64,000 nucleotides of DNA. Origin: Paenibacillus sp. G2S3 (GTDB lineage: Bacteria; Bacillota; Bacilli; Paenibacillales; Paenibacillaceae). A program made the position numbers and the translations under genes. The stretch spans positions 1,922,001-1,986,000 of the forward strand of contig NZ_CP126095.1 in NCBI RefSeq assembly GCF_030123105.1, given 5' to 3'. Positions 6,297-35,888 of this stretch are shown in pieces (the first letter of the stretch is position 1; each line of letters starts with the position of its first letter). The notes beneath the pieces were generated by a model, which did not search any database, was not told where the DNA came from, and saw nothing but the letters and a program-made list of their open reading frames with translations.

Positions 6297-6298
6297 AT

Positions 6299-8214: not shown

Positions 8215-8227
8215 AGTTCGTTATGGT

Positions 8228-10746: not shown

Positions 10747-10757
10747 TGTCTCTCCTC

Positions 10758-11708: not shown

Positions 11709-12182
11709 ATCATCCGCTCCTTCATGTGTTTCATACATGCTGCTATTTGTAACCGCTTTCCCTGAGTTAATTTTATAGAAGTACGATGAGATGCTTCCAG
11801 TTAAGAAACATGATACTTCAGTCAACAAACGTTAGATCCAGGATGAATTTCCTTTAAATGAGCAAAAAAAACATATGCTATGGAGGTTTATACACATTGC
11901 CTCTGCGAGCAGCGTCGGCATTGTAATACAACGGAATGATGGGCGAAAAGCGCAAGAATGACACACTTCTAGAACATCAACATAGCGCTGAAACGTATAT
12001 CATCCCGCAGTACAACACGAAATTCTTGATAAGTGAGAATGACATATTTACGATTTGCTCGATTCTATATAGTGTAAATGTAAGCGCTAGCATTAATGCG
12101 ATTGGTAACAATTCGATAGATAATGATGCTCACTCGATGATCAGAATGTTCTCATCATTACCTATAAGGAGGGGATGTCGCG
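11709..12182. other. Divergent intergenic region between two transporter operons
   Basis: 474 bases holding the left copy of the 39-bp repeat (11799-11837) and both promoters, which I cannot place with certainty. TTTACG...TATAGT near 12046-12075 is a weak plus-strand candidate. An open frame at 11936-12244 overlaps the start of the next gene, has no ribosome site and looks non-coding. Confidence 0.5.
11799..11853 (+). repeat. 39-bp direct repeat, left copy
   Basis: Positions 11799-11837 are identical to 25699-25737, and similarity continues with a few mismatches to about 11853/25754. Both copies are intergenic and in the same orientation. They are 13.9 kb apart and bracket the second ABC transporter, the AraC regulator, both fucosidases, the CBM9 protein, the transglutaminase-fold protein and GH18. 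Confidence 0.9.
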
Positions 12183-13154: not shown

Positions 13155-13170
13155 AAGGAGGTTGGAATTT

Positions 13171-14079: not shown

Positions 14080-14114
14080 TCTTAAGATACAAGTAAAAAA
14101 GGGGAGGTTTTTGT

Positions 14115-15728
14115 ATGACGAATTATCGTAAAACTGGACTCATGTTGTTATGTCTTTCCATGTCAATTTCTATTTTTACTGCATGTGGATCGAGTAACGA
14201 TAAGGGGACGGCAAGCACAGAAAGCTCAGACACAGCCGCAGAGGTTCATAAGACGGGCTTTCCTATCGTGGATAATCCGATTGAGCTTTCTATTATGGCA
14301 CCGGATGTAGGGCGTCAGGATTGGAACAAGATGCCTGTTATTCAGGAATACGAGAAGATGACGAATATTAAGTTAAAGATTCAAAACGCCCCACAAGACA
14401 GCTTTGAGACGAAAAAGAATTTGGTATTTGCAAGCGGTACGCTTCCCGATATTTTCTATGCGGCGGATCTAAAAGGATCGGATCAAGTTACCTACGGAAG
14501 TCAAGGATTGTTGCTGCCTTTAGAAAAATACATTGATGAGGGCTACGCACCTAATTTAAAAAAAATTCTCGATGCAAATCCGGATATTCGCAAATCAATG
14601 ACAACACCAGATGGACATATCTATGCACTACGCAATATTCAGCCATCTGCGGTATGGTATCGTGGACCGATGTGGTATAACGGGAAGTTCTTGAAGAAGT
14701 TCGGCATGGAAAACAAATTACCGCAGACAACAGAAGAGCTATACAACTATTTGAAGAAGGTTAAAGAGGAAGATGCGAACGGAAACGGTAAAGACGATGA
14801 GGTTCCTCTATCCTCTGTGAAATTAGATGATTTACGGATGTTCTTCCTCGGATTCTGGGGGATGTATAACGAGGATATCTACGTAGATAAGGAGAACAAA
14901 GTACACTTTCCACAAGCTGAACCAGCCTACAAAGAATATTTAACCTTCTTGAATCGCTTATGGAACGAGAATTTGCTAGATCATGAAACATTCTCTCAAA
15001 CCGATGAGCAGAAGAAAGCAAAAGGGAAAAACAATCAAGTGGCCTTATTCTCCGATTACTTCCCATACTTCACGCTTGGTGGTGAACCGAGTGAAGATAA
15101 CCCGATGATGCAGCCTGTATCTAGTGATATTGCTGGAACACCTGTATACGGCAAGCATCCTGGTATTAACACCATTGGCGGTTTCGCGATTTCAAACACG
15201 AACCCGAACCCGGAAGCAAGTATGCGCTGGATTGATTACCAATTTAGCGAAGAAGGGTATTCCTTCTGGGCGTATGGACCTGAAGGTACGTTATTTAAAT
15301 ACAAAGATAAAGCAACAGGCGAGAAAGAATGGCTGCCAGTTCCAGATGGTACGGATCGTGAAGAATACCGCGGTACAATCACGCCAAACTACGGGATTAA
15401 TACACCAGGTTCCTATGAGAACAGCTATGTTTTAGGTCTTCGTACTAGCTTTGATGACTGGATTGACAAAGAAACAGCTACAAAGCTTACACCTATTGCA
15501 AAGGCTCCCTTCCCATCGGTATTCCTGACGGTAGACCAACAGACGGAAATCAAAACACTCCGTTCCGATTTGGATAAATACGTGAAGGAAATGGAAGCGA
15601 AATTCGTTACAGGCGCAGAGCCATTATCCAATTGGGACAAATATATCGCTCAAATGAAAAAAATGGGGTATGAGAAGCTCGAATCAACGTATCAACAAGC
15701 ATACGATACATGGGCTGCTAGTAAATAA
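14115..15728 (+). CDS. Extracellular solute-binding lipoprotein (second importer)
   Basis: 537 residues; lipoprotein signal with FTAC lipobox at about residues 22-25, then a Ser/Thr-rich linker. The length and the LplA-like pattern (TGFPIVDNPIELSIMAPD near the mature N-terminus) place it in the larger LplA/YtcQ group of binding proteins, unlike the two ~500-residue DUF3502-type proteins on the minus strand. ATG 14115 follows GGGGAGG. It lies at the end of its operon, before a hairpin terminator and convergent to the AraC-type regulator. With the fucosidase and transglutaminase-fold genes beyond, it is a candidate binder for fucosylated glycans or glycopeptides; this is context inference only. 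Confidence 0.93.
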   Translation: MTNYRKTGLMLLCLSMSISIFTACGSSNDKGTASTESSDTAAEVHKTGFPIVDNPIELSIMAPDVGRQDWNKMPVIQEYEKMTNIKLKIQNAPQDSFETKKNLVFASGTLPDIFYAADLKGSDQVTYGSQGLLLPLEKYIDEGYAPNLKKILDANPDIRKSMTTPDGHIYALRNIQPSAVWYRGPMWYNGKFLKKFGMENKLPQTTEELYNYLKKVKEEDANGNGKDDEVPLSSVKLDDLRMFFLGFWGMYNEDIYVDKENKVHFPQAEPAYKEYLTFLNRLWNENLLDHETFSQTDEQKKAKGKNNQVALFSDYFPYFTLGGEPSEDNPMMQPVSSDIAGTPVYGKHPGINTIGGFAISNTNPNPEASMRWIDYQFSEEGYSFWAYGPEGTLFKYKDKATGEKEWLPVPDGTDREEYRGTITPNYGINTPGSYENSYVLGLRTSFDDWIDKETATKLTPIAKAPFPSVFLTVDQQTEIKTLRSDLDKYVKEMEAKFVTGAEPLSNWDKYIAQMKKMGYEKLESTYQQAYDTWAASK

Positions 15729-15821: not shown

Positions 15822-18083
15822 TTATACGGTATCGTTAGGCTCAGTATTGGGATGATTACTATTCATCTGTCGATACTGGCCCGGGGTATAACCGGTTTCC
15901 TTTTTGAATTTTCGAATAAAGTTTGGTGTGTCGAGGTAGCCGACGCGCTGGATAATATCTTTTAACGGATCACTTGTTATTACGAGCTGTTCCTTGACCT
16001 TATCTAATCGTTTTTGCCAAATATATTGGACGAAGTTGATGCCGACCTTATCCTTGAATGAACGACTGAGATGGGAAGGTGAAATCGTAAACGCAGCAGA
16101 AACAGATTCAAGGCTAAGTGAATGATCAACATAGCGCTGGTCGATAAAAGCAACGATATGATCCATGAGTGAATGTTCTTCTTTTTTATGCGTCTGCTCC
16201 ACCTGTGTACAAATCTGAGTGGATAAACGGTAGAAATTCTGCTCTATCAGATGGACGGGACCATTCATGAAATGGGGAGAAGCATACTGCATCATGTTAT
16301 CCATCTTTAGCTCAACTGCAGCTTTGAGCATGGTATTCAGCAGGTCGAACAATACGCATCGCATCAGCAGGGTAGATCGTTGTTTATTATCAAGCCCATG
16401 GATGGCTGTGTGAATGATTTGTTTGGCGACTTCGTAGTTGCCCTGCTTCAAGCTTTGTGCAAGCTTTAATAGCTCGTTACTAGGGAGTAACACCGTTTGA
16501 TCATGGGCACTGGATAGCTTTTCAAAATACACGGTGGTTCCATGCTCGGTCGATTTACGCAATTCGAAGGCGGAGCAAGCCTCAACAAAGGATTGATTAA
16601 GCTGCTGAGGGCTCTCATAACATTTGCCTACACCGATCATCGGGTGGATATCCATTATGCCTAACGTATATTCACGGATCGCATCCACGATGTGAACGAT
16701 TTGTGCAGCGAGTGCCTCATCATCTTCGAGCTGTAAGCTCACAATGAGTGCGAGCTGATCCAATTGCGGGAGCTCTACACCGTATACTTGTGTAGCAAGC
16801 GCTGGAAATTCAATAAACGCAAGCTTGCGATGTACTTCTTGTCGCGCCTGAAGATGCTGCTGTTCTAAGTCATCCCAGCCCATCATCATGACAAAATGAT
16901 GACTTTGGTCGAAGTGCAGATGAAAGGTATCGAATATTCCATGCGTCATCATTTGTGCATGTCCATGCTTTAATAGCATGGAGAGAACATGGTTGCGTGC
17001 ATAGGGCTCTTGGAGATCAACCTTGGAGCTATACTGCTGTAATGTTGTTCGTATATACTCGAGCTCATTTCCGGAGGCCGGTGTATCTGTTTTTTTGTTC
17101 GTGAAGCGAACGAGCTCAGCAATCGGAAGATATTGCATCCGAGCGAATAATAGAGCGATGGCCGTTCCTACAATGGCGATCACAATGAATAAAATAATGA
17201 TGAAGCTCCGAACATTAAGTACACTACTGAAAAACTGATTACTCGCCATTAAAGTCACATATGACCAGCCATTGACATCCGATGTGACGGAAATAACCGA
17301 ATGATCTTCGTTGTTTATCGATAGATTATGTATGCCGGGTGGAAGCTCTGATAACCGTTGGATATTCTGTTGGCTAGCTGTATCTCCATGGCCACTATAG
17401 GATAAAACACGTCCATGATTATCAAAAATATACGTTAATCCTCGATAGTTACCGAGAACGGAATCGATCAGATATGCCAACTCTTTCTCTTTAATGAGGT
17501 ACATGACAGAAGCATATGGATCTGAGGTGTTGGGAATGATCGGCAGGATATAGGTTAATACAGATTGCTCGAGTGGTGAATTTTGATTCAGCATGTTCGT
17601 AAGTCGAATGGATGGAAATTTGGACGAGTTTAAAGCAGTCACAAGTTCATCATTCTTCCAGCTTCCAAACTGATAGGAGCTACGAAATACATCCAGGCTA
17701 TACATGCCATGGTTGGAATAAATATTAGGGTCATGATGATAGTACAGAAATATATCCTCCACAATGGAATTGGAAGATTTGTAGCTATCTAGTGCCGCTA
17801 TGGCGTCACGACTTTCATAAGGATCCAGTATGCGATAATGAGCGAGACGAGCGTCGTATGACATCCGTGACGCCATATCTCTTAAATCATTCATGCGTCC
17901 ATCCACCACCGTTTTAATTTGGGTGAGCTGATTAAAGTGAGCATTTTCAATCTCCTTTTGTAAATTATCGGTAGCATTTCGGTAAATGAAAACGATTACA
18001 AATATAAGCGGAATAAGAAGGATAAGTAGATACGAACCGGTGAATTTCAAAAACAATTTCGATTTGAAATAGTTATAGTTCAA
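15822..18083 (-). CDS. Membrane-bound AraC-family regulator with extracytoplasmic sensor (YtdP-like)
   Basis: 753 residues from TTG 18083, chosen because AAAGGGGG sits about eight bases upstream; the frame also has an earlier TTG at 18131 without a good ribosome site. Membrane helix 1 is at about residues 13-34 and helix 2 at about 293-315, enclosing a ~260-residue outer sensor region. A long cytoplasmic middle part follows, and the last ~100 residues are an AraC double helix-turn-helix (LESVSAAFTISPSHLSRSFK and the later GYLDTPNFIRKFKKETGY). This is the domain layout of one-component regulators that switch on nearby sugar operons in Paenibacillus. It lies between the second transporter and the fucosidase genes and probably controls one or both. 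Confidence 0.9.
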   Translation of the reverse strand: MNYNYFKSKLFLKFTGSYLLILLIPLIFVIVFIYRNATDNLQKEIENAHFNQLTQIKTVVDGRMNDLRDMASRMSYDARLAHYRILDPYESRDAIAALDSYKSSNSIVEDIFLYYHHDPNIYSNHGMYSLDVFRSSYQFGSWKNDELVTALNSSKFPSIRLTNMLNQNSPLEQSVLTYILPIIPNTSDPYASVMYLIKEKELAYLIDSVLGNYRGLTYIFDNHGRVLSYSGHGDTASQQNIQRLSELPPGIHNLSINNEDHSVISVTSDVNGWSYVTLMASNQFFSSVLNVRSFIIILFIVIAIVGTAIALLFARMQYLPIAELVRFTNKKTDTPASGNELEYIRTTLQQYSSKVDLQEPYARNHVLSMLLKHGHAQMMTHGIFDTFHLHFDQSHHFVMMMGWDDLEQQHLQARQEVHRKLAFIEFPALATQVYGVELPQLDQLALIVSLQLEDDEALAAQIVHIVDAIREYTLGIMDIHPMIGVGKCYESPQQLNQSFVEACSAFELRKSTEHGTTVYFEKLSSAHDQTVLLPSNELLKLAQSLKQGNYEVAKQIIHTAIHGLDNKQRSTLLMRCVLFDLLNTMLKAAVELKMDNMMQYASPHFMNGPVHLIEQNFYRLSTQICTQVEQTHKKEEHSLMDHIVAFIDQRYVDHSLSLESVSAAFTISPSHLSRSFKDKVGINFVQYIWQKRLDKVKEQLVITSDPLKDIIQRVGYLDTPNFIRKFKKETGYTPGQYRQMNSNHPNTEPNDTV

Positions 18084-18299
18084 AGTGTTTTCCCCCTTTT
18101 TATGGCGTATACATGGAGATGTTCCTATCAAGCTATGAATACAGCAAGATATAGATCGGCGCTTGAATACTTATTTATATTCCATAATAGGATGTTTATA
18201 GCGGATATTTATTTTTATGTCAAATGTTTTTTTGAAAATATATCATACTAAATCAATAGAATCGCAGCCTCAGAAAAGCTGCATGGAGGTCGTGCAAAA

Positions 18300-19688
18300 A
18301 TGAGTGACGCTAATGTTGTCGAGGAGCAAATTGTTGTTGAAGGAGTTCACAATTACAGCACAGAGGAGGAGTACGTTAAGCCGGAGGATTCGCAGCTATT
18401 AGATCAGCTGGAATGGTTCAAGGATCAGAAGCTGGGCTTGATGATGCACTGGGGACCTTATTCGCAGCTTGGACTTGTTGAATCGTGGGCGCTTAGTGAT
18501 AAAGATGGAGATTGGTCACGGGACGATATTGATTGGGGGGTTGATTCGACGGAGCTGAAGCGGCAATACTTCGGGCTGAATAAAACCTTTAATCCGCTCC
18601 GTTTTGAGCCTGAGAAGTGGGCAGAGGTTGCTGCAGAAGGTGGCTTCAAATATTTAAATTTCACAACGAAGCATCACGATGGCTTCTGTATGTGGGACAC
18701 GCAGACAACAGACTATCGCATTACGGGCAAGGATTGTCCTTTCCATGCACATAAGTACGCGGATATTTGTAAGAACGTATTTGATGCTTTTCGGGCCAAG
18801 GGACTTGGGATCTCCGCCTACTTCTCCAAAGCCGATTGGCACACACCAACATACTGGGCCCCAGGTATGGAGACGGGGACGTTCATGAATCGAGGTCCTT
18901 CGTATCCAACACAAGATTATCCATGGCTATGGGAGCAATTCATACAGTTCACACATGATCAGATCATGGAATTGATGACGAAATATGGCCGGATTGAAAT
19001 GCTCTGGTTGGATGCGGGGTGGGTATGTCCACAGAATAAGAATAATCCACAGGATATTCGGTTGGGTGAAGTGGTGGAGAAGGCACGTCAGCAACAGCCA
19101 TGGCTGCTAAGTGCAGACCGTACCGTTGGCGGCCCGTATGAGAATGTCGTTACACCTGAACAAACGTTGCCCGAGCATCCCCTGCTTATTCCATGGGAGA
19201 GCTGTATTACGATGGGGACAGCGTTCTCTTATCGGTACGAGGATCACTACAAGACGACACGTCAATTAATCCATTTGCTCGTTGAAGTTGTAGCCAAAGG
19301 CGGAAACCTGGCACTTAATGTCGCTCCACAACCAGATGGCCGCTTGTCACCAACAGCGTTGGATCGGATGAAAGGAATGGGCGCTTGGCTCAACGTTCAT
19401 GGGGAGGCGATCTACGGAACGCGCGTATGCGCGCCATACTCTGCTGGAAATACACATTTCACGAAAAAAGGCGATATCACCTATGCCATTCATTTGTACC
19501 CGAAAGAGCAGGAAACGGTGAGCAAAGTAATTTGTATTCCACTCGAGCAGGCTGTAACGCAAATGGATCTTGTTGGCGGACAAGAAAATCTAACATTCGA
19601 ACGAACAACAACGGGATTGATCGTTCATTTACCAGAGAGCGAGCTTACGGGAATTGCCCCAATTGCACATGTATTTCGAATAAAATAA
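18300..19688 (+). CDS. Alpha-L-fucosidase, GH29 (first copy), cytoplasmic
   Basis: 462 residues, no signal peptide. GH29 hallmarks: KLGLMMHWGPYS (residues 44-55), TKHHDGFCMWDT (123-134) and RIEMLWLDAGW (231-241), where D238 matches the retaining nucleophile of the family. It has a ~30-residue acidic N-terminal extension absent from the second copy. ATG 18300 follows TGGAGG. The reaction is hydrolysis of terminal alpha-L-fucose; the linkage cannot be read from the sequence. It is the first gene of the long plus-strand glycan-degradation run. The two GH29 proteins differ clearly (WLDAGW versus WFDGDW), so they probably handle different fucose linkages. Confidence 0.93.
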   Translation: MSDANVVEEQIVVEGVHNYSTEEEYVKPEDSQLLDQLEWFKDQKLGLMMHWGPYSQLGLVESWALSDKDGDWSRDDIDWGVDSTELKRQYFGLNKTFNPLRFEPEKWAEVAAEGGFKYLNFTTKHHDGFCMWDTQTTDYRITGKDCPFHAHKYADICKNVFDAFRAKGLGISAYFSKADWHTPTYWAPGMETGTFMNRGPSYPTQDYPWLWEQFIQFTHDQIMELMTKYGRIEMLWLDAGWVCPQNKNNPQDIRLGEVVEKARQQQPWLLSADRTVGGPYENVVTPEQTLPEHPLLIPWESCITMGTAFSYRYEDHYKTTRQLIHLLVEVVAKGGNLALNVAPQPDGRLSPTALDRMKGMGAWLNVHGEAIYGTRVCAPYSAGNTHFTKKGDITYAIHLYPKEQETVSKVICIPLEQAVTQMDLVGGQENLTFERTTTGLIVHLPESELTGIAPIAHVFRIK

Positions 19689-19715: not shown

Positions 19716-21002
19716 ATGCAACAATGGTTCACCGATGCAAAGCTAGGAATTTTCATTCACTATGGGATTTATGCGGTACAAGGTGTTGCAGAATCATGGT
19801 CTTTCTATAACGGAAGAATGTCTTATGAGGACTACATGAAGCAATTGGATGGTTTTACAGCTTCCAAATTTGATGCAAAGTATTGGGCAGATTTGATTGC
19901 GAAGTCAGGAGCTAAGTATTCTGTTCTAACGACGAAGCATCATGACGGGGTAGCATTATTTGATACGAAGTTCAGTGATTTGAGCATTATGAAGGCGACA
20001 CCTGCCAAGAGAGATATTATTAAGGAGTGGTCTGAGGCGATTCGAGATCAGGGTCTTCGCGTGGGGATGTATTACTCGCTCATTGACTGGTCTCATCCCG
20101 ATTATCCCTCAGTCTATGAGAACGGTCGCGTACCGGATGACTTAAGCCAGGTAAATCGTTTTTCAAGTCCGATGGATGGTGTTCAAGATTTAGAAAAATG
20201 GCAGAAATTCCTTGCATTTAACCGTAATCAACTAGGAGAAGTGTTGTCGAACTATGGTCAGGTTGATCTGTTATGGTTCGATGGAGATTGGGAACGAAGC
20301 GCAGAGCAGTGGGGATTGCCAGCATTCAAAGATTATTTAAAATCATTTAATCCTGATCTTATTATAAATTCACGTTTGCAAGGGTATGGGGATTATAAGA
20401 CTCCCGAGCAAGGTCTTCCCATTACGCGTCCGGAAGGCCCGTGGGAATTCTGCACGACGATAAATACGTCCTGGGGTTATGTGCATACAGACCACAATTA
20501 TAAATCAATGAATCAAATAATACGAATGTTCTGTGACTGTATCAGCATGGGTGGCAATATGCTGTTAGATATTGGGCCCATGGAGGACGGAACGATTGAT
20601 CCTAGGCAAGAAGAGATTTTGCTCGGACTAGGTGACTGGATACGTACACATGAAGAAGCCATCTATGGAACACAAGAGGGTATTATGACACGCTACTATT
20701 TAGGTGGCAGTACATTATCTCCGGATAAGAAGAACTTGTTCCTCTTCGTTTACGATACACCGAAGGAGAATATTTGTCTCAAAGGGCTATGTAATCCCAT
20801 TACCCAAATTACGGTGCTTCACTCAGGCAAGAAGCTCACCCATGAAATTCACGGTGGTGTGCCATGGTTTCATATACCAGGTACAACTTGGATTCAGATA
20901 ACACCTGAAGATATGCATGAACAAGTGACGGTACTTAAATTGGAATTCGATGAAGAAATTGAGATGTACGGCGGCTCAGGCGCAGTTGTAACGCACAACT
21001 AA
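19716..21002 (+). CDS. Alpha-L-fucosidase, GH29 (second copy), cytoplasmic
   Basis: 428 residues, no signal peptide. It carries KLGIFIHYGIY (residues 9-19), TTKHHDGVALFDT (72-84) and VDLLWFDGDW (183-192), with D189 as the expected nucleophile. The C-terminal third is a beta-sandwich-like region. It starts 27 bases after the first fucosidase, with GGGAGGA upstream of the ATG. The WFDGDW form and the KRDIIKEW segment are typical of the more common GH29 subgroup. The pair suggests a substrate carrying fucose in two linkages, as on N-glycan cores and antennae; this is inference. Confidence 0.94.
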   Translation: MQQWFTDAKLGIFIHYGIYAVQGVAESWSFYNGRMSYEDYMKQLDGFTASKFDAKYWADLIAKSGAKYSVLTTKHHDGVALFDTKFSDLSIMKATPAKRDIIKEWSEAIRDQGLRVGMYYSLIDWSHPDYPSVYENGRVPDDLSQVNRFSSPMDGVQDLEKWQKFLAFNRNQLGEVLSNYGQVDLLWFDGDWERSAEQWGLPAFKDYLKSFNPDLIINSRLQGYGDYKTPEQGLPITRPEGPWEFCTTINTSWGYVHTDHNYKSMNQIIRMFCDCISMGGNMLLDIGPMEDGTIDPRQEEILLGLGDWIRTHEEAIYGTQEGIMTRYYLGGSTLSPDKKNLFLFVYDTPKENICLKGLCNPITQITVLHSGKKLTHEIHGGVPWFHIPGTTWIQITPEDMHEQVTVLKLEFDEEIEMYGGSGAVVTHN

Positions 21003-21031: not shown

Positions 21032-22060
21032 ATGGTAAATCGAAGTGGAGTACCAGAGCCACGCATTGTTTCATACGCCCCAAAGCATTATCTATGCAGA
21101 CGAGCGACGGAGTCGCTTGTCTTGGATGGGAGGCTAGATAAGCCTTTTTGGCAGCATGCAGCATGGACAGAAAAGTTTGTTGATATTGAAGGAGATTTGC
21201 GTCCGAAGCCAGGAAAGGATACGAGGGTAAAGATGCTATGGGATGATGAGTATTTTTACTTTGGTGCAGAGCTGATGGAAGATCAGATCTGGGGAACGCT
21301 GACAGAACGTGATTCCGTTATTTTTTACGATAATGATTTTGAGATTTTTATTGATCCAACAGGGGATTCCCATCAATATTACGAGTTTGAGATTAACGCC
21401 TTGAACACGGTATGGGACTTACTGCTTGTAAAACCTTATCGTGACGGGGGTCCTCCGATTAACGGTTGGGATATCCAAGGCTTGAAGACGGCTGTTCATA
21501 TCGAAGGCGAGTTAAATAATCCGCACGCTGACAATCGGAAATGGACGGTTGAAGTTGCAATACCATGGAACAGTTTGAAAGAATGTGCTACGGATCGACG
21601 ATCACCATATGCTGGGGAGTTTTGGCGTGTTAATTTTTCACGTGTTGAATGGCGGACCGAGGTTGTCGATGACAAGTATAGTAAGCTTCTCAATCCTGAC
21701 ACAGGAAAACCTTATCCTGAGGATAATTGGGTGTGGTCACCACAAGGAATCATTAATATGCATTATCCAGAACTGTGGGGTTATGTTGTATTCGTGAATG
21801 AAGCGGGTCCATATCAGTTCGACATCCCTCGGGATGAACATATCAAATGGGAATTACGGAAGCTCTATTATCGTGAGCGGAACTATTACGAAACACACGG
21901 CATGGTCACAGCCGATTTTAATGCATTGTGTGAAGAAGATACATGGACCATAGAACCGAGCATTGAAACGACGACTAAAACTTTTATTATATCTGCATTA
22001 ACATCAGATGAGACGTCCCGTCTTTACATTCGCGAGGACGGGTATCTCTGGAAGGAGTAA
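21032..22060 (+). CDS. CBM9-like carbohydrate-binding protein without signal peptide
   Basis: 342 residues. Residues ~25-205 form a CBM9-type (DUF1083-like) beta-sandwich: LDGRLDKPFWQHAAWTEKFV, then RVKMLWDDEYFYFGAELMED and a W-rich GEFWRVNFSRVEWR segment. The last ~80 residues resemble no domain I know. CBM9 domains normally bind sugar ends on secreted enzymes; here there is no signal peptide or attached catalytic domain, which is odd and implies a cytoplasmic role or a diverged function. Ribosome site AAAGGAG precedes ATG 21032. The next gene begins six bases after its stop, so the two are probably made together. Confidence 0.8.
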   Translation: MVNRSGVPEPRIVSYAPKHYLCRRATESLVLDGRLDKPFWQHAAWTEKFVDIEGDLRPKPGKDTRVKMLWDDEYFYFGAELMEDQIWGTLTERDSVIFYDNDFEIFIDPTGDSHQYYEFEINALNTVWDLLLVKPYRDGGPPINGWDIQGLKTAVHIEGELNNPHADNRKWTVEVAIPWNSLKECATDRRSPYAGEFWRVNFSRVEWRTEVVDDKYSKLLNPDTGKPYPEDNWVWSPQGIINMHYPELWGYVVFVNEAGPYQFDIPRDEHIKWELRKLYYRERNYYETHGMVTADFNALCEEDTWTIEPSIETTTKTFIISALTSDETSRLYIREDGYLWKE

Positions 22061-22066
22061 TTAGAT

Positions 22067-24634
22067 TTGGAACAGATTGAACGTAAGTTTCAGGAGAAGA
22101 AGAGTTTGGCCAAGGCACGTGCAACGCAGTTATTTCAAATCTTTGAACAGGACTTGACGGAAGAAGAAATAATTGCACTTAAGTATCTCTACGCGTATAT
22201 GCCAGTGAATGATTTGGCGGATTACAGTGGTCAGCTTTTCTTGAATCATGTAAGAACGACACTAAAGATTCGCCGAGATATGCCATGGCAAGTACCGGAT
22301 CATATATTTTTACATTTCGTGCTTCCCTATCGTGTTAATACCGAAAACATTGAAGAACACCGCCAAATTCTCCATGAACAATTAGCAAAGCGAACTAGTA
22401 AGTTGTCCATGACGGAAGCCATTCTTGAGACGAACTACTGGTGTCATGAGGCGGCAACGTACATTGGGAGTGATTTGCGAACGATTTCACCATTAACAAT
22501 GATTCGAAATGCTCGCGGTCGTTGCGGTGAAGAATCCACACTAGCTGTGGCAGCCCTTCGCAGTATAGGTATACCTGCACGTCAAGTGTATACGCCACGT
22601 TGGGCTCATTGTGATGATAACCATGCATGGGTGGAGGCATGGGCAGAAGGTGAATGGTATTTTATCGGGGCTTGTGAGCCGGAAGCCCGTCTTAATCAAG
22701 GATGGTTTGGACCTCCAGCGCGTAGAGCAATGTTAATTAACACGCGTATTTTCGCAAATTATCAAGGTCCAGAAGATATTACGCTTGCAGATGAGTGGTT
22801 CACTGAAATTAATGTATTGGAAAATTACGCATCCACGCGGACAATTACGGTTCAAGCGAAGGATGAATTTGGGCAGCCCGTGCAGGATGCAGAAGTACAG
22901 TTCCAAGTGTATAACATGGCGGAATTTTTCCCGATTGCCATCCTTCCTACCAATGCTCAAGGGGAAGCAACTTTCAAAACGGGTCTCGGCGACCTTATGA
23001 TTCGTGCGGCAAAGGGTGGTACTTGGGGGGAAGTGAAAATTTCAGTGGCGGACTGTGAATGTGTTGAGCTTGTACTGAATCAAGAAAATCAGTCCGCTGT
23101 AGGTACGATGGTCGATTATGATATGGTCCCACCTCCATCGTGTGAAGGGGAGGTGGTAGAGGAACTGTCTGAAATTCGTATCCAGCGACATAATGAACGC
23201 TTGGAGGAAGGGATCTCCATTCGTGCGAAATATGAAGCGACTTTTGTGACAGAAGAAGCAGCGAGGAAGCTCGGGGCAACACTGGGTCTCCCGCAAGATC
23301 GTGTATGGACAGTACTTCAGAAGGCGCGTGGTAACAGTGTAGAGATAGCCGCATTTCTGGAAGCAGCCACATCCGTGTATGGAGAATGGGCATTACGGTT
23401 ATTGGAGTGTTGTAATGACAAGGATTTAATCGACACATTCATTCCAACCCTTACAGATCATGTGGCTGGTGCACTTGCTGTACGTGGTGAGCTCACAGAG
23501 GAAGTGTTCGTTCCCTACATTCTGCGTCCTCGTGTTCATTACGAGATGATTACACCGTATCGTACATTTTTCCAACAAGCTTTCACTTCGGATGAAGTGG
23601 CATTGTTCCGACAGGACCCATCGAAGCTGGTTCAATTCATAGATGAAACGTGGGATATATGGACTGATCTTCCGAATCTGAAAGGGAAGGGAACAGCAGT
23701 GGGTACCTTTGAATTGCGTGTAGGCGATCGCAGTTCCCTGGATATCATGTTCGTATCCATTTGTCGTAGTTTAGGAATCCCAGCGCGAATTCATCCCATT
23801 GAATCTAAGCCGCAATTTATGGTGGATAATATTTTCGTGGATGCTCAATTTACCAAAGGCGTTGTTGGAGACGGGATAGAATTTGCGAACGGTACTCTCA
23901 TCCTTCATCGTGATCAAGGTGCAGGGACAGTCCAACCAACAGCTTCATACTATGAGAATTTCACATTAGCTCGTCTGAAGAATGGTTTTTATAAAACCTT
24001 ATGTTTCCCACATGGCGCAAATGACCTATATGATACACCACTTGAGGTTGAGCAGGGAGCATATCGTCTGACGACAGGCGTACGATTAAAGGATGGCACC
24101 GTGCTTATAAAGTTCACTTATTTCCATATTGCAGAAGGGGAAGAGAATAAGCTGGTGATGCAGTATCGTCAATCTACATTGGAAATTCCAGTGTACGGCA
24201 AGGTGGAACGACTTAAGCAGCTGACCTCATGGGCAGGAGTAGAGCAGACTTTCGCAGATCTTCTGGATGGGAAGGGCGCCTATGTCGCTTGGCTGGAGCC
24301 GGAACGAGAGCCTTCAAAGCATTTGCTTCGTGAACTATCTGAGTTGAAGCATGAGTTCGATGTGCTAGGTGCTCCCATCATTCTTGTTGTTGGTGACAAG
24401 CAATGGACAGCTTCGTTTCATCCCGAGGACTACCCGGATCTTCCTGCAAATACAGTGTTTGTTCGTGATTCAACATATAATCTACTACCTGAATTATTTG
24501 CATCGTCCCACGCGAGTGAAGCGGGCTTCCCGCATCTTATCATTGTGGACCGTGAAGATCAGATTCGTTACATTTCATCAGGATATAAGATTGCAGCAAG
24601 CAAGGAAGCGATTCAAATCTTAATCAGGGTGTGA
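22067..24634 (+). CDS. Multidomain transglutaminase-fold protein; candidate peptide:N-glycanase-like enzyme
   Basis: 855 residues from TTG 22067, preceded by GGAAGGAG; no signal peptide. Residues ~115-230 are a transglutaminase core: GRCGEES with C153, NHAWVEAW with H186, and GACEPE (201-206) where the third triad residue is expected. The GRCGE...HxWVE...W...CE order and the following GWFGPPARRAMLI recall cytosolic peptide:N-glycanase (Png1), a transglutaminase-superfamily enzyme that cuts N-glycan from Asn. Residues ~255-340 look like a carboxypeptidase-regulatory/Ig domain. Residues ~540-600 look like a second transglutaminase-like domain that has lost its cysteine (SSLDIMFVSICRSLGIPAR). 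The last ~120 residues resemble a thioredoxin fold without CxxC. Deglycosylation of imported glycopeptides is inferred from motifs and neighbours, not proven; protease or amidase activity is possible. Confidence 0.7.
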   Translation: MEQIERKFQEKKSLAKARATQLFQIFEQDLTEEEIIALKYLYAYMPVNDLADYSGQLFLNHVRTTLKIRRDMPWQVPDHIFLHFVLPYRVNTENIEEHRQILHEQLAKRTSKLSMTEAILETNYWCHEAATYIGSDLRTISPLTMIRNARGRCGEESTLAVAALRSIGIPARQVYTPRWAHCDDNHAWVEAWAEGEWYFIGACEPEARLNQGWFGPPARRAMLINTRIFANYQGPEDITLADEWFTEINVLENYASTRTITVQAKDEFGQPVQDAEVQFQVYNMAEFFPIAILPTNAQGEATFKTGLGDLMIRAAKGGTWGEVKISVADCECVELVLNQENQSAVGTMVDYDMVPPPSCEGEVVEELSEIRIQRHNERLEEGISIRAKYEATFVTEEAARKLGATLGLPQDRVWTVLQKARGNSVEIAAFLEAATSVYGEWALRLLECCNDKDLIDTFIPTLTDHVAGALAVRGELTEEVFVPYILRPRVHYEMITPYRTFFQQAFTSDEVALFRQDPSKLVQFIDETWDIWTDLPNLKGKGTAVGTFELRVGDRSSLDIMFVSICRSLGIPARIHPIESKPQFMVDNIFVDAQFTKGVVGDGIEFANGTLILHRDQGAGTVQPTASYYENFTLARLKNGFYKTLCFPHGANDLYDTPLEVEQGAYRLTTGVRLKDGTVLIKFTYFHIAEGEENKLVMQYRQSTLEIPVYGKVERLKQLTSWAGVEQTFADLLDGKGAYVAWLEPEREPSKHLLRELSELKHEFDVLGAPIILVVGDKQWTASFHPEDYPDLPANTVFVRDSTYNLLPELFASSHASEAGFPHLIIVDREDQIRYISSGYKIAASKEAIQILIRV

Positions 24635-24638
24635 AAGG

Positions 24639-25682
24639 ATGGATCAACAAATGATTGTAGCAGGCTACGTGAGTGATTCCAAACTATCTGAGTTAACGCA
24701 TGACCACTTGATGAAATTAACGCATCTCAACATTGCATTTGGTTATGTGAAGGATGATCAGATTACAACAGCACATTTGCAATTCACGAACCAGCTACAA
24801 GAGATGAAAGCGATGTATCCGAATCTGACGCTAATGCTCTCCGTTGGCGGATGGGGGAATGGGGGCTTCTCTGAGGCCGCTTCTACCGAAGAAGGACGTC
24901 AGAAATTTGCAGCTTCGGCTGTGCAAGTGGTAACAGATTTCCCGTTCGATGGAATAGATTTGGATTGGGAATATCCTTGTTACAGTGAAGCGGATATTGA
25001 AGCGTCTCCGGATGATAAATGCAATTTCACACTGCTATTAAAGACAATTCGAGATGCACTAGATGTGAAAGGTACAGCGGATGGCAGACATTTCTTGCTT
25101 ACGATTGCGGCAGGTGCTGATCAGTATTACATAGATGGCACCGAGATGGATCAAGTGCAGCAATATTTGGATTTTATACAGCTGATGACCTACGATATGC
25201 GTGGCGGATTCCAGATTCTAACGGGACATCATACGAATTTATTTCATACGACAGGAGATTTGTATCGTATCAGTACAGAGGCATCGGTGAATATGTTCAT
25301 TCAGGCAGGCGTGCCCCGAGAGAAAATCGTCATTGGCGTGGCGTTCTATTCCCGAATGTGGAAGCAGGTGCCTAATAAGAATCATGGATTTCTACAAATG
25401 GCGGGCACAACAGGTGGCTATGGCCCAGAATATACAGAACTGTTTGCTAATTACATCAATCAGAATGGCTACACACGACATTGGGACGATGAGGCCAAAG
25501 CACCGTTTTTATTTAATGGAGACACGTTTATTTCCTATGATGACGTGGATTCTATCACACATAAATGTGAGTATGTCAAACGTGAAAACCTTGCGGGTGC
25601 CATGTTCTGGGAATATAGCTGTGATAGGACACACACGTTGCTTGATGCACTGTATGCAGGCTTATATGAGAGCGTGAAGTGA
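24639..25682 (+). CDS. GH18 glycosidase (chitinase/endo-N-acetylglucosaminidase-like), cytoplasmic
   Basis: 347 residues, no signal peptide. The GH18 signature is FDGIDLDWEYP (residues 103-113), with E111 as proton donor and D107/D109 completing DxxDxDxE. SVGGW (68-72) and QLMTYDM are the other conserved family segments. GH18 cleaves beta-1,4 links next to GlcNAc by substrate assistance. Being cytoplasmic and embedded with N-glycan enzymes, it probably splits the GlcNAc-beta-1,4-GlcNAc core, but an intracellular chitooligosaccharide hydrolase cannot be excluded. It starts four bases after the transglutaminase-fold gene, showing tight coupling, and is the last gene before the right copy of the 39-bp repeat. 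Confidence 0.92.
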   Translation: MDQQMIVAGYVSDSKLSELTHDHLMKLTHLNIAFGYVKDDQITTAHLQFTNQLQEMKAMYPNLTLMLSVGGWGNGGFSEAASTEEGRQKFAASAVQVVTDFPFDGIDLDWEYPCYSEADIEASPDDKCNFTLLLKTIRDALDVKGTADGRHFLLTIAAGADQYYIDGTEMDQVQQYLDFIQLMTYDMRGGFQILTGHHTNLFHTTGDLYRISTEASVNMFIQAGVPREKIVIGVAFYSRMWKQVPNKNHGFLQMAGTTGGYGPEYTELFANYINQNGYTRHWDDEAKAPFLFNGDTFISYDDVDSITHKCEYVKRENLAGAMFWEYSCDRTHTLLDALYAGLYESVK

Positions 25683-25754: not shown

Positions 25755-25857
25755 TTAAAGCGCTTTATTATGATTTAAAGTAGGGGTGCAAGTAGCTCTA
25801 GACATACTGAAAACGTTGTTGCAAATCACAATTGTAGACATGGAAGGAGATTATGAG

Positions 25858-26850
25858 ATGAGTAGAATCATAGGTGACAAGCTATCTAATATTCCTTGGC
25901 AAGATAAGCCGAGTGGCTATAACGCTCCAGTGTGGCGATATACCCATAATCCGATTATTCAGCGAGATGCACAGTTAAGCTCGAACAGTATTTTTAATTC
26001 CGCGGTTATTCCTTTTGAAGAGGGGTATGCAGGGGTATTCCGCTGCGACTCCAGATCCGTAAGTATGGACATATTCGCTGGTTTCAGTCAGGACGGGCTT
26101 CATTGGGAAATTAATGAGAATCCGATCCAATTCGAAGGCGACGAATATGTCACAAAGCGGGAGTATCGTTACGATCCACGCGTGTGCAAAATCGAGGATA
26201 AATATTATATTTCTTGGTGTAACGGATACCATGGTCCAACAATTGGTCTCGCATATACGTATGATTTCAAAACCTTCCACCAATTAGAAAACACTTTCCT
26301 GCCATACAATCGGAATGGTGTATTATTCCCGCGCAAAATAAATGGCAAATATGCGATGTTAAGCCGTCCAAGTGATACGGGGCATACACCATTTGGAGAT
26401 ATCTTTTTTAGTGAGAGTCCTGACCTGACGTACTGGGGAAAGCATCGTTACGTGATGGGTACGATCAACTCGGACGCTTCTGCATGGCAATCGAAGAAAA
26501 TTGGTCCAGGGCCGGTTCCTATTGAAACAGATCGCGGATGGTTGTTGATCTATCATGGTGTCATAAATACGTGTAACGGGTTCGTATATCGGATGGGTGT
26601 TGCTTTATTAGATTTGCATGAGCCATGGAAGGTGCTAGCACGTTCACGGAATTATATTCTTGGACCAGAAACATTGTATGAGTGTGTAGGAGATGTGCCG
26701 AATGTTACCTTCCCTTGCGCAGCACTTTCCGATGGCGATACAGGTCGAATTGCAATTTACTATGGCTGTGCTGATACCGTAACAGGGATTGCGTTCACAA
26801 CTGTGGATGAGTTGTTCTTCTATATGAATAAGTATCCGCTTGAGAATTAG
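25858..26850 (+). CDS. GH130 mannoside phosphorylase (probable beta-mannosyl-GlcNAc type)
   Basis: 330 residues from ATG 25858 (MSRIIGDK), with GAAGGAG upstream; an in-frame GTG at 25786 is poorly placed. GH130 features are the five-bladed propeller pattern with [35 protein letters not shown] (catalytic-blade Asp) and [20 protein letters not shown] (phosphate-binding blade). Enzymes of this group phosphorolyse beta-mannosides; with N-glycan neighbours the likely substrate is Man-beta-1,4-GlcNAc, giving mannose-1-phosphate and GlcNAc. Beta-1,2- or beta-1,4-mannobiose phosphorylase remains possible. It opens the second part of the run: GH130, GH38, GH3, GH125, isomerase, kinase. Confidence 0.9.
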
Positions 26851-26903: not shown

Positions 26904-29348
26904 ATGTCCAGCAAACGACCTTGGAAAATATACGCAATCCATCATTCACATACAGATATCGGATATACAGAGCGTCAAGAGAAAATTCAGCAGTATCATG
27001 TTAATTTTATTCGCCAGGTCCTGCATATTTTACGTGAAAGCAAATCGGGACGTCGTCCGGAATGGCAAGGCTTTAAGTGGGTTTGTGAGACCTTTTGGCC
27101 GATTGAAACCTTTCTTAAGCAGGCGACAGAGCAAGAGAAGATAGAGTTCGCTGAAGGCGTGAGACAGGGAGATATCGGGTTGTCGGGGACTTATCTAAAT
27201 ATGACAGAATTAATTGGTAAAGAGCTGTTCCAATCGATGATTGCTCGGGTATGTGATTACGGACAGTCCATACAAATTCCTGTAACATCGGCAATGACAG
27301 CAGATATTAACGGTTTTAGCTGGGGGTATGGTCAGGTATTGCTGGATGCTGGGATCCAGAATCTGTCCACCTGTATTCATACGCATCACGGAATGTTCCC
27401 TTGCTGGAAAAAGCAGCAGCCGTTCTGGTGGGAGATGCCTTCAGGGGATCGCCTGTTGACGTGGAGCGGAGAGCATTATGTGTTCGGAAATGATCTGGGG
27501 CTTGTACCTGGCATGGGTGGTAAATATACGATTAAAGATGAATTCGATATGAGCAAGGGCGCGGATTTTGAAATTGCTGAACAACGGATCGAGCGTTATA
27601 TCGATCGTCTGACAGAGGATGGCTATGCATTCGATTTCTTTCCGGCGATGTTCTCAGGCTTACCAACGGATAATAACCCACCCAATGCGGCGGCAATGGA
27701 GTTTATCCAGCAATGGAACACCAAGCATGGGGACCGGATTTTGATTCAAATGGCTACGCTAGATGACTTCTTTGCAGAAGTCCGTGCCCATGCAGCTCAG
27801 CACCCGGAAGATATTCCTGTCTATCGCGGAGATTGGCCCGATTGGTGGACGGATGGGGTTGGCTCTACACCAAAGCATGTGCAAGTATTTCGTGAGGCGC
27901 AGCGGGTGTACCAAAAAGTAAGAAGACTAGATCCTAATTATGACATCATTTCTCCGGAAGCGATTAAAGAAATGGAATATCAATTAACGATGTTCGCTGA
28001 ACACACATGGGGCTATCATTCTTCCATTTCGGAGCCTTGGAACCCGTTTGTTCAAGAGTTGGGTTTGCGCAAGGAGGCTTTTGCTGCAAATGCGAGCACC
28101 GCTGCACATCGTGCGTTGTACGAAATCCTTGAAGCCAAGGGAGATGCACTGCTTGCACCGGGTCGGCCGATGAAGTTCAAAATTTGTAATCCTTACAGCT
28201 ATGTTCAGGAGGATCATGCCCATCTTATTCTTGAGGGTTGGTATTACGAGCAGATTAAGGAAGGGTTTGAGGTGCGTGATTTCAATACAGGTGAGGTGCT
28301 CCCATCTCAACTGCGTCTTGCGCATCGCGGGGTTATTGTAACGATTCCGGTCATGTTGGAGCCCCAGGAAGAAAAAGTGCTTCATATCGTAGCGGTTAAG
28401 CCAACAATCAAAACCGCATATATGAATGATTATGTGGCATCGGATCGTGTATTGGATTTGGATGTTACTCATGAAGTAAAGGACTTCCATGTCACATCCA
28501 CATATGCTGAAACACCATTTGTACGCATTGAATGGAAGAAGGGTGAAGGAATCACCTCTTGGAAGGATAAGCAGACTGGACAGGAACTGCTGCGTGCGGA
28601 CCGGAATCATCATGCATTCACGCCGGTATATGATGTCACACCAGCCACAAAGGTGGTCGAAATGACGGAGGTTCGTCGTCTTATGGGCCGTAATCGGAAA
28701 GGTCCGAATGCGATTGTATCTACAGGTTTATTGACAAGTGCAGAAATTATTGAACAGGGGACGCTTTATAGCATGATTCAATTGACCTATGAAGTCTCCG
28801 GTTGTGAGCATTATTCCTTATTCTTAACCGTGTATGCGGATCGTCCTCGTGTAGACGTGGCGGTACGGATGCATAAGGAAAGTGTATGGAAGCCTGAGAA
28901 TTTGTACGTCTCACTTCCGTTTGGCAGCGCATTGACAACCTCTACGCAGGAGCTGTGGGTAGATAAGATGGATGCCCTAACTCGTCTGCGCAAGGATCAA
29001 TTACCAGGCAGCTTGGCTGATTATACGGCTGTTGGCGAAGGTGCTGCATACATTTCGAAGGATCAAGGTATTGTGATCGCGATGCCAGACACTCCGTTGA
29101 TTCAACTGGGCGCTTTAGAGCATAAATATCGTCTACTTAATGGTGATGCAAGACTGGAACAGGACCCTGCACACTTATATGCCTGGGTGATGAATAACTA
29201 TTGGGAAACCAACTTTGCAGCTACACTTGGCGGCTTCTATGAATTCCGCTATTACATTACATGGGGTGAGAAGTTTAACAACCCTGAAGTATCGTTCAAC
29301 ATGTGTCGGGGGATGAATGCAGGAATCCTGGCGTGGAGACAGTTCTAG
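26904..29348 (+). CDS. Alpha-mannosidase, GH38, cytoplasmic
   Basis: 814 residues, no signal peptide. The metal-site motif HHSHTDIGYT lies at residues 13-22 (H16, D18), and MTADINGFSWG at 131-141 gives D134, the expected nucleophile and zinc ligand. AEHTWGYHSS further on matches the second conserved His region of the family. GH38 removes alpha-linked mannose from high-mannose or trimmed N-glycans. The start is ATG 26904 after GGGAGAG, 53 bases beyond GH130. Together with GH125 at 31707 it would cover alpha-1,2/1,3 and alpha-1,6 linkages. No oddities were seen. Confidence 0.94.
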   Translation: MSSKRPWKIYAIHHSHTDIGYTERQEKIQQYHVNFIRQVLHILRESKSGRRPEWQGFKWVCETFWPIETFLKQATEQEKIEFAEGVRQGDIGLSGTYLNMTELIGKELFQSMIARVCDYGQSIQIPVTSAMTADINGFSWGYGQVLLDAGIQNLSTCIHTHHGMFPCWKKQQPFWWEMPSGDRLLTWSGEHYVFGNDLGLVPGMGGKYTIKDEFDMSKGADFEIAEQRIERYIDRLTEDGYAFDFFPAMFSGLPTDNNPPNAAAMEFIQQWNTKHGDRILIQMATLDDFFAEVRAHAAQHPEDIPVYRGDWPDWWTDGVGSTPKHVQVFREAQRVYQKVRRLDPNYDIISPEAIKEMEYQLTMFAEHTWGYHSSISEPWNPFVQELGLRKEAFAANASTAAHRALYEILEAKGDALLAPGRPMKFKICNPYSYVQEDHAHLILEGWYYEQIKEGFEVRDFNTGEVLPSQLRLAHRGVIVTIPVMLEPQEEKVLHIVAVKPTIKTAYMNDYVASDRVLDLDVTHEVKDFHVTSTYAETPFVRIEWKKGEGITSWKDKQTGQELLRADRNHHAFTPVYDVTPATKVVEMTEVRRLMGRNRKGPNAIVSTGLLTSAEIIEQGTLYSMIQLTYEVSGCEHYSLFLTVYADRPRVDVAVRMHKESVWKPENLYVSLPFGSALTTSTQELWVDKMDALTRLRKDQLPGSLADYTAVGEGAAYISKDQGIVIAMPDTPLIQLGALEHKYRLLNGDARLEQDPAHLYAWVMNNYWETNFAATLGGFYEFRYYITWGEKFNNPEVSFNMCRGMNAGILAWRQF

Positions 29349-29375: not shown

Positions 29376-31685
29376 ATGAGGTATAAAGATTCATCCTTGC
29401 CGATTCATGAGCGTGTTAGAGATTTATTGGCCCATATGTCGCTGGAGGAGAAAATCGGGCAGCTCCTCCAGCCCTTTGGCTGGAAAGCGTATGAGAAATC
29501 AGAAGGCAGGATTCAACTGACTGAAGCATTTAAGGGAGCAGTCGCAAAAGGTGGCGTGGGTTCTTTGTATGGTGTGCTGCGTGCAGATCCTTGGACAGAG
29601 GTAACGCTTGAAACAGGGTTGTCCCCGATGGAAGGTGCAGAAGTAACGAATCTGATCCAGCAATATGCCATTGAACATACACGTCTGGGTATTCCGATTC
29701 TGTTGGGCGAGGAATGCTCTCATGGTCATATGGCGATTGGTAACACCGTCTTTCCCGTACCGCTTGCCATTGGAAGTACATGGAATAGGGAATTGTTCCG
29801 GCAGATCTGCCAAGCAGTGGCTGCAGAGACTCGCGCTCAAGGAGGGACAGCAACCTACTCCCCAGTACTAGATATTGTACGTGATCCGCGTTGGGGGCGA
29901 ACAGAAGAATGCTTTGGGGAAGATCCATATTTAAATAGTGAAATGGCAGTTGCTGCAGTGAGGGGCTTACAAGGTGATTCATTAAATACAGACCATACGA
30001 TCCTGGCAACATTAAAGCATTTCGTCGCGTATGGCAGCTCGGATGGTGGTCGTAATGCTGACACCGTACGGTTGGGAAAACGCGAATTAATGGAGAAGGA
30101 TTTGCTGCCATTCCAGAAGGCAATTGAAGCTGGGGCGAAGTCTGTTATGACTGCTTACAATGAGATTGATGGTGTTCCGTGTACCTCAAGCAAGGCGTTG
30201 TTAACAGATGTGCTTCGTGAGCAATGGGGCTTTGAAGGCTTCGTCATTACGGATTGTGGTGCGATCAGCCAGCTTAAACACGGTCACCAGATTTGTGAGA
30301 CCGAAGAAGAGGCAGCATCACTTGCACTTAAAGCTGGTGTGGATATGGAGATGTCTGGTGAAACATTTGGCAGATGTCTAATGAACGCATTGCGGCTTCA
30401 GTTGATTGAGATTTCCGATATTGATCTCGCAGTTGAACGAATTCTGCGTGCGAAGTTTGAATTGGGACTGTTTGAACGTCCCTTTGTTGATCCGGCAACA
30501 GCACAGCGCGTCGTTGGACAGCAGTTGCATGTAGAGATGGCGCGACAAGCTGCACGCGAAGGTATCATTCTTTTGAAGAATCATGATGATGCTCTGCCGC
30601 TTTCTCCGTCACTTGGTAAGATTGCTGTTATTGGGCCGAATGCCAACAATATTTATAATCAATTGGGTGACTATACTTCGCCACAGGAGCGTCATCACAT
30701 CGTTACCGTTTTGGACGGGGTCCGTGCTAAATGTGATGGACTCAGCGAAGTGCTGTATGCTCCGGGCTGCCGCGTGAAAGATCCATCGAAAGCAGGCTTT
30801 GAGATGGCAATGGAGGTAGCGTCAGCAGCGGATACCATTATTGCAGTCGTCGGGGGATCGAGTGCACGTGATTTCGGTGAAGGTACGATTGATTTGAAGA
30901 CAGGCGCCGCCGTCATTACGGATCAATTTAGTCTTAGTGATATGGATTGTGGGGAAGGCTTCGATCGTGCAGAGCTCAACTTATGCGGTGTGCAGCTTGA
31001 ACTGCTGCAGGAGCTGCACACCTTGAACAAAAAACTGATTGTTATCTATATCAATGGTCGCCCCATTGTCGAGCCTTGGGTAGATGAGCATGCGGATGCC
31101 ATTCTGGAGGCTTGGTATCCGGGACAGCAGGGTGGGCATGCGATTGCTGATATTTTGTTCGGAGACTATAATCCATCCGGTCGCCTTACGCTGTCCATTC
31201 CAAAGCATCCAGGGCAATTACCGATTTATTATAATAAGAAACGCTCCAGAGGTCATCGCTATCTCGAGGTGGACTTTCATCCACAATATGTATTTGGTTA
31301 TGGTCTAAGCTATACAAGCTATCAATACGAGCATATTCGCTTGGATCAGACACAAATAGAGTTGGATGGTTCTTGTACTGTATCCGTGGAGGTAACGAAT
31401 ATTGGCGATGTTGCTGGACATGAGGTTGTTCAACTATATATAAAAGATTGCACTAGCACAATCACACGCCCGGAACGAGAATTAAAAGGATTTCAGAAGA
31501 TTTATATTGAGCCTGGTGAGATGCGTATCGTTCAATTTCATATTACTCCGCGGGAGCTGCAGTTTGTCGGCTCTGATTTGCAGTGGATGGTTGAGCCCGG
31601 CAAATTTGAGATCATGATTGGATCGAACGTAGGCAGTACCATTTCAACAAGCTTAGAGGTTGTTCCTCGTAACTTGAGATCGTAA
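29376..31685 (+). CDS. GH3 beta-glycosidase (beta-glucosidase/beta-xylosidase type), cytoplasmic
   Basis: 769 residues, no signal peptide; full three-part GH3 layout of barrel, alpha/beta sandwich and C-terminal fibronectin III-like domain (NIGDVAGHEVVQLYIKD). The nucleophile is D293 in VITDCGAI. The acid/base E527 in CGEGFDRAEL is present, which argues against the NagZ beta-N-acetylglucosaminidase branch, whose members lack it. GEECSHGHMAIGN near residue 111 is close to beta-xylosidase and exo-glycosidase members. In this locus one attractive role is removal of the core beta-1,2-xylose of plant N-glycans, but a beta-glucosidase is equally allowed by sequence. It begins 27 bases after GH38 with GGGAGGA upstream. 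Confidence 0.93.
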   Translation: MRYKDSSLPIHERVRDLLAHMSLEEKIGQLLQPFGWKAYEKSEGRIQLTEAFKGAVAKGGVGSLYGVLRADPWTEVTLETGLSPMEGAEVTNLIQQYAIEHTRLGIPILLGEECSHGHMAIGNTVFPVPLAIGSTWNRELFRQICQAVAAETRAQGGTATYSPVLDIVRDPRWGRTEECFGEDPYLNSEMAVAAVRGLQGDSLNTDHTILATLKHFVAYGSSDGGRNADTVRLGKRELMEKDLLPFQKAIEAGAKSVMTAYNEIDGVPCTSSKALLTDVLREQWGFEGFVITDCGAISQLKHGHQICETEEEAASLALKAGVDMEMSGETFGRCLMNALRLQLIEISDIDLAVERILRAKFELGLFERPFVDPATAQRVVGQQLHVEMARQAAREGIILLKNHDDALPLSPSLGKIAVIGPNANNIYNQLGDYTSPQERHHIVTVLDGVRAKCDGLSEVLYAPGCRVKDPSKAGFEMAMEVASAADTIIAVVGGSSARDFGEGTIDLKTGAAVITDQFSLSDMDCGEGFDRAELNLCGVQLELLQELHTLNKKLIVIYINGRPIVEPWVDEHADAILEAWYPGQQGGHAIADILFGDYNPSGRLTLSIPKHPGQLPIYYNKKRSRGHRYLEVDFHPQYVFGYGLSYTSYQYEHIRLDQTQIELDGSCTVSVEVTNIGDVAGHEVVQLYIKDCTSTITRPERELKGFQKIYIEPGEMRIVQFHITPRELQFVGSDLQWMVEPGKFEIMIGSNVGSTISTSLEVVPRNLRS

Positions 31686-33029: not shown

Positions 33030-33084
33030 AGTATAGTCACCATAAGCGGGATAGAATTCATTCAACTGTATAGGAGTGACAACT

Positions 33085-35840: not shown

Positions 35841-35856
35841 GATGAACAATAACCAG

Positions 35857-35888
35857 AGCTGATTGGGTATCCAATCGGCTTTTTTTGT
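35857..35888 (+). terminator. Terminator ending the glycan-degradation run
   Basis: Stem AGCTGATTGG / CCAATCGGCT with a short loop followed by TTTTTTTGTTT. It begins 17 bases after the ROK kinase stop. Confidence 0.88.

Follow-up and report, generated by a model that had tools for sequence, protein, structure and literature searches.

A stretch of 64,000 nucleotides from Paenibacillus sp. G2S3 (contig NZ_CP126095.1, positions 1,922,001 to 1,986,000), referred to here as the window, contains a run of glycosidase genes and, within it, the gene for TGL, a protein of the transglutaminase (TG) superfamily. TGL is read here as a cytosolic TG-superfamily amidase of a family of its own, which would free N-acetylglucosamine (GlcNAc) or chitobiose from imported glyco-asparagine (glyco-Asn) or glycopeptides; we give this predicted activity a probability of roughly 0.5.

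TGL and the run of genes around it

All genes between positions 18300 and 35840 are on one strand, separated by gaps of -22 to 103 bp, in the order GH29, GH29, CBM9-like, TGL, GH18, GH130, GH38, GH3, GH125, ManA-like and ROK (Table 1). A preliminary description of this DNA had placed TGL between fucosidases and a GH18 gene in a run of N-glycan enzymes, and the gene order bore this out, with the CBM9-like gene lying between the second GH29 gene and TGL. Going by family assignment only, enzyme families for bonds of the N-glycan core (GH29, GH18, GH130, GH38, GH3 and GH125) are collected in this one run, which appears to fit N-glycan core catabolism. Because each core bond other than that between GlcNAc and Asn seems to have a family candidate in the run, TGL, its only evident non-glycosidase hydrolase, would be the only evident candidate for the GlcNAc-Asn amide.

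The rest of the genome was searched for other enzymes that could serve this bond. No match to the glycosylasparaginase profile PF01112 was found in the genome (5 of 14 positive controls matched), and no peptide:N-glycanase (PNGase) A was found there (one positive control matched). The genome contains one GH85 gene, whose frame has a signal-like segment as judged by eye. Across the 197 genomes sampled from the family Paenibacillaceae, to which the window belongs, PF01112 was present in four, two of which also have TGL. Alternatively, TGL might be a cysteine peptidase of the cytosol that shortens the peptide portion of imported glycopeptides and leaves the glyco-Asn to another enzyme. We consider this unlikely, as the GlcNAc-Asn bond would then be without an evident enzyme in a genome where neither PF01112 nor PNGase A was found, and the protease titles are depositors' labels.

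Table 1. TGL, its domains and the surrounding features, in positions of the window
Feature	Position	Strand	Basis
TGL, TG-superfamily protein, 855 amino acids, candidate amidase	22067..24634	+	Open reading frame (ORF), Pfam Transglut_core, C153/H186 invariant 69/69
Catalytic TG domain with GRCGEE, WAHxDxNHAWVE and GACEPE	22379..22753 (~residues 105-229)	+	Pfam 105-198, model, fold search
Ig-like domain of TGL, as in Bacteroides fragilis 3e8v	22838..23083 (residues 258-339)	+	
Core of degenerate second TG domain of TGL, catalytic Cys absent	23666..23791 (residues 534-575)	+	
Thioredoxin-like C-terminal domain of TGL, no CxxC	24188..24631 (residues 708-855)	+	
CBM9-like protein, 342 amino acids, no visible signal peptide	21032..22060	+	Pfam CBM9_1, co-occurrence
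GH29 alpha-L-fucosidase a	18300..19688	+	
GH29 alpha-L-fucosidase b	19716..21002	+	
GH18, 6inx type (N-acetylglucosaminidase)	24639..25682	+	
GH130 mannoside phosphorylase, UhgbMP-like	25786..26850	+	
GH38 alpha-mannosidase family	26904..29348	+	
GH3; beta-xylosidase is one possibility	29376..31685	+	Pfam; NCBIfam below cut-offs
GH125 alpha-mannosidase family	31707..33029	+	
608-amino-acid protein with mannose-6-phosphate isomerase-like part	33076..34902	+	
ROK-family protein, probably a sugar kinase	34881..35840	+	
Terminator-like hairpin after last gene, 12 pairs	35855..35882	+	Total of such sites not above chance
Two ABC permeases and binding protein with lipoprotein-like start; kept near TGL in relatives	12183..15728	+	
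AraC-type regulator	15822..18131	-	

Domains and active site of TGL

Against the Pfam core profile PF01841, TGL scored 85.9 bits with a cut-off of 23, in agreement with its initial assignment to the TG superfamily. C153, H186 and GACEPE (201-206) are all present as first described, no signal peptide is visible, and the additional domains proposed at that time (Ig-like, degenerate second TG, and a thioredoxin-like end lacking CxxC) were confirmed. The B. fragilis 'possible transglutaminase-family protein' was represented among solved structures by the fragment 3e8v only; this Ig-like fragment is 37% identical to TGL over 82 residues. Full-length relatives in Parabacteroides and Phocaeicola start like lipoproteins. 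The catalytic TG domain has a mean predicted local distance difference test (pLDDT) score of 79 in the predicted model, and the active-site loops at 132-136, 139-141 and 182-185 fall below 50, scores for active-site loops being below 50 in both models. In the second TG domain, a register check placed the column of the catalytic Cys at residue 555. Both C153 and H186 are invariant in all 69 aligned TGL sequences; over the first 255 residues, 80 columns, these two included, do not vary in this set. This degree of conservation argues against TGL being a regulator or scaffold with no enzymatic part in the pathway, a very improbable role that would nevertheless accord with second TG and thioredoxin-like domains devoid of catalytic residues. 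TGL frames that seem broken or split were seen in loci L071, L073 and L080 and in genomes G495 and G567, pointing to gene decay in some lineages or to assembly errors.

The preliminary description had also proposed TGL as a candidate Png1-type PNGase from the order and spacing of its motifs. In a profile alignment the Cys of GRCGE and the His that follows are indeed common to TGL and Png1, and the letters had been read correctly, but the third position had been misaligned, as the column of the Png1 catalytic Asp (D350 in mouse) falls on G201. This column is Gly in 69 of 69 aligned TGL sequences, and also in four of four full-length far relatives. Six other Transglut_core loci occur in the genome; the motif is readable in four, with D in three and E in one. 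CxxC pairs, which bind zinc in Png1, were found neither in TGL nor in any of 35 aligned rows. Matches to Png1 were not significant (E 0.097-0.75; 0.24 for the profile and 0.097 for a single sequence), and 3isr matched TGL better (E 0.026 and 0.088). The matches that the fold searches listed did not include Png1, but this does not count as evidence for different folds. The Asp-to-Gly column and the missing CxxC pairs led us to reject TGL as a member of the Png1 family. E204 and E206 are candidates for the acid that would complete the TGL site.

TGL and Png1/NGLY1 are alike in superfamily, in the GRCGE and H-x-W-x-E context of their Cys and His, in the lack of a visible signal peptide and in an N-glycan setting, whereas TGL has the three additional domains described above and not the PUB and PAW domains of Png1/NGLY1 (PMC12248763). 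Could TGL nonetheless be a true Png1-type PNGase that uses a shifted acid (E204) and takes whole glycopeptides containing chitobiose as its substrate? The GRCGE, H-x-W-x-E and C-E patterns shared in the profile alignment would suit such an enzyme, as would the presence of Png1 chains among the few PDB sequences that match TGL at all. Given the weak E values, the better match to 3isr, the Gly column, the lack of CxxC and the different architecture, we hold this to be improbable.

Distribution of TGL and its genomic neighbours

A scan of genome contigs found at least 580 TGL relatives, of which the best 80, nearly all from Paenibacillus, were kept, and neighbouring genes were counted up to 10 kb to either side of TGL. 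In 71 of these loci roughly the whole distance was covered on both sides; absences in the other nine are weaker. The most frequent neighbours were CBM9 (75 loci), GH18 (69), the AraC regulator (67), the binding protein (63), permease D (62), GH29 (61) and permease C (58). GH125 was a neighbour in 13 loci and GH38 in seven, the latter counted with four queries at E 1e-20, which other GH38 types would escape. The constant unit is thus the transporter, fucosidase, CBM9-like, TGL and GH18 genes, to which mannose enzymes are added in some loci, and it would meet the demands of a fucosylated chitobiosyl-Asn substrate. The preliminary description had named protease or cell-wall settings as the contexts that would speak against its view; instead, 71 of the 80 loci have at least one of GH29, GH18, GH38 and GH125. 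Upstream of the CBM9-TGL pair, locus L046 has a row of GH3, GH38, GH29 and GH125, and L020 has GH29, GH125 and GH38. In L015, L016, L020, L021 and L050 GH125 sits between GH29 and the CBM9-like gene, so that a mannose enzyme joins the core unit in some lineages. CBM9-TGL pairs without GH29, GH18, GH38 or GH125 were seen in L075, L081, L082, L084 and L087, with transporter genes kept in L081 and L082.

TGL was present in 89 of the 197 sampled Paenibacillaceae genomes. A new finding here is its association with the CBM9-like gene, which was missing from the genes listed at first. This gene occurs in 85 of the 89 genomes with TGL versus 7 of the 108 without. Of these 92 genomes, 80 have it directly upstream of TGL on the same strand at less than 600 bp; in five genomes both genes are present but apart. 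It is a near-obligate partner of TGL, and because the two genes co-occur and adjoin each other, they are read as encoding a two-part enzyme, or an enzyme and a binding protein. A sequence search of the PDB at E 0.01 gave no relative of the CBM9-like protein. Co-occurrence with GH125 and GH130 had also been suggested at the outset: GH125 was found in 89 of 89 genomes with TGL versus 80 of 108 without, and GH130 in none of the 80 loci. GH85, whose activity would leave GlcNAc-Asn outside the cell, was rejected as a tight genomic companion: once 17 weak matches had been dropped, strong ones remained in 45 of the 89 genomes with TGL versus 36 of the 108 without. Across the phylum TGL was present in 5 of 398 genomes, the window's own included. 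Two of these five are from one distant family, of which two genomes were sampled. Both have GH38 after TGL, and where the contig extends far enough to the other side, in one of them, CBM9 precedes TGL. A scan of viral contigs gave seven pattern matches and no relative.

Outside the phylum, two full-length TGL relatives (36.8% and 36.2% identity) were found in Bacteroidota records that are filed as plasmids and are probably chromosomal. Their starts are lipoprotein-like, and no CBM9-like relative was seen in four Bacteroidota loci (best E 0.38). In Phocaeicola massiliensis (L095) the 36%-identical relative is followed, on the other strand, by genes for CutC, GH29 and a glutaminase. In Persicobacter the genes for CutC and PNGase F are followed by a DDE transposase-type gene and then by that of a much shorter TG protein (28.7% identity over a third of TGL); on the megaplasmid of Persicobacter sp. 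JZB09 (L096:6114-11128) this row follows SusC/SusD-like ORFs. CutC, which stands beside TGL and GH29 in L095, may serve the use of N-glycans or GlcNAc-Asn rather than copper. The Bacteroidota setting fits an N-glycan role. Since P. massiliensis, which has a characterised PNGase (PMC9522356, excerpt), also has TGL, and Persicobacter has PNGase F near its TG protein, it argues at the same time for different jobs, for example TGL acting on stubs.

A proposed route for N-glycan cores

Several other genes of the window bear on the route. The GH130 protein is nearest to UhgbMP (4udg, E 1e-148), named a beta-1,4-mannosyl-N-glycan phosphorylase (PMC10619541, excerpt). The nearest solved relatives of the GH18 protein are the chitinases 5gzu and 5gzt and, over its full length, 6inx, which was deposited as an N-acetylglucosaminidase. 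6inx is identical (345/345 residues) to the GH18 that adjoins TGL in P. barengoltzii, and this neighbour of TGL, which is not itself the candidate, is 68% identical to the GH18 of the window. With these relatives the latter was rejected as an endo-beta-N-acetylglucosaminidase, and it looks more like a GlcNAc-ase acting on chitobiose; the preliminary description had assigned it no role. For the GH3 protein, the NCBIfam models for BglX (beta-glucosidase) and for beta-xylosidases matched only below their cut-offs. The 608-amino-acid protein resembles mannose-6-phosphate isomerase at residues 252-550 (PDB 1qwr, E 1.4e-15; NCBIfam manA below cut-off); its remainder has no Pfam family, and its gene overlaps the ROK gene by 22 bp. 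The binding protein was rejected as one known for N-glycans, its nearest solved relatives being 5g5y and AlgQ1/AlgQ2. Elsewhere in the window, a second set of transport genes lies at 4001-11828 on the minus strand, opposite to the N-glycan run, and encodes two DUF3502 binding proteins and two permeases along with a paired histidine kinase and response regulator. An ORF of 2590 amino acids spans 51443-59215.

In the route that we propose, GH38, GH125 and GH130 would take off mannose, the two GH29 enzymes would take off core fucose, and GH18 would take one GlcNAc off the chitobiose. TGL, probably partnered by the CBM9-like protein for glycan binding, would hydrolyse the amide that links Asn to the innermost GlcNAc of imported glyco-Asn or glycopeptides, with C153 and H186 as its catalytic residues. 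Mannose would enter metabolism by way of the ROK and ManA-like proteins. All of this is predicted: that an Asn-linked substrate is imported, which reaction takes place, in what order the steps run and which acid completes the site.

One of the closest known schemes is alf-2 of Lactobacillus casei (AlfH, AlfC and AsnA2), in which core-fucosylated glyco-Asn is imported, GH29 removes the fucose and GlcNAc-Asn is split in the cytosol (PMC6960285, excerpt). The same steps are proposed here, but AsnA2 is a self-processing glycosylasparaginase and the permease is of the major facilitator superfamily, whereas the window has an ATP-binding cassette (ABC) transporter and a TG-superfamily protein in which Pfam found no Asparaginase_2 domain (PF01112). 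The bond proposed for TGL is also that of PNGase F and PNGase A, and the neighbours of plant-type PNGases of Bacteroides include GH29, GH3 (a beta-1,2-xylosidase there), GH130 and GH92 (PMC9522356, excerpt). The catalytic modules of PNGase F, however, are two beta-sheet domains (PMC12381499, excerpt), and TGL had no Pfam match to PNGase F (PF09112/PF09113) or PNGase A (PF12222).

A number of observations weigh against an amidase of this kind. No activity is on record for any member of the TGL family, and the catalytic-Asp column is Gly throughout, with no replacement acid shown. The window's complete gene set is not typical, as GH130 was found in none and GH3 in one of the 80 loci, and nine loci have none of GH29, GH18, GH38 and GH125 (one of these, L056, is a short contig). 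The link to GH85 is weak, and the p-values for co-occurrence ignore kinship and genome size. The PNGase F C-domain had no match in the genome, but neither did any positive control match, so that PNGase F is not excluded. The relative in Parabacteroides distasonis sits among unrelated genes, P. massiliensis already has its PNGase, and the PNGase F gene of Persicobacter suggests that TGL may not do the job of a PNGase. The neighbour counts would also suit a core unit (transporter, GH29, CBM9, TGL and GH18) whose substrate is not an N-glycan but another fucosylated amino-sugar compound, with TGL cutting some other amide in it, and in this respect GH38 and GH125 in only seven and 13 loci and the resemblance of a 6inx-type GH18 to chitinases agree with the GH130 and GH3 counts. 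We regard such a substrate as distinctly unlikely, since GH125, GH38 and GH130 lie directly in the run of the window, GH125 or GH38 accompanies TGL in some relatives, and every genome with TGL has GH125.

Taken further than the amidase activity itself, and more tentatively, TGL may represent a separate family of bacterial de-N-glycosylating TG-superfamily amidases with a Cys-His site and an unusual acid. In Paenibacillus they would be cytosolic and form two-part enzymes with the CBM9-like protein; in Bacteroidota, where the loci seen have no CBM9-like gene, they would be lipoproteins. They would act on trimmed (Fuc)GlcNAc1-2-Asn (Fuc, fucose) within peptides, a substrate for which known glycosylasparaginases are not made. 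The bacterial N-glycan-freeing enzymes named in a review are GH18, GH85 and PNGases (PMC10154615, excerpt), and no description of a TG-type bacterial PNGase was found in the open-licence literature searched, which does not mean that none has been published. If TGL is a TG-superfamily amidase, it would be another solution for the GlcNAc-Asn bond, present in 89 of the 197 sampled genomes of the Paenibacillaceae and in at least two records from gut Bacteroidota, and it could also be used as a tool to strip glycopeptides of GlcNAc stubs.
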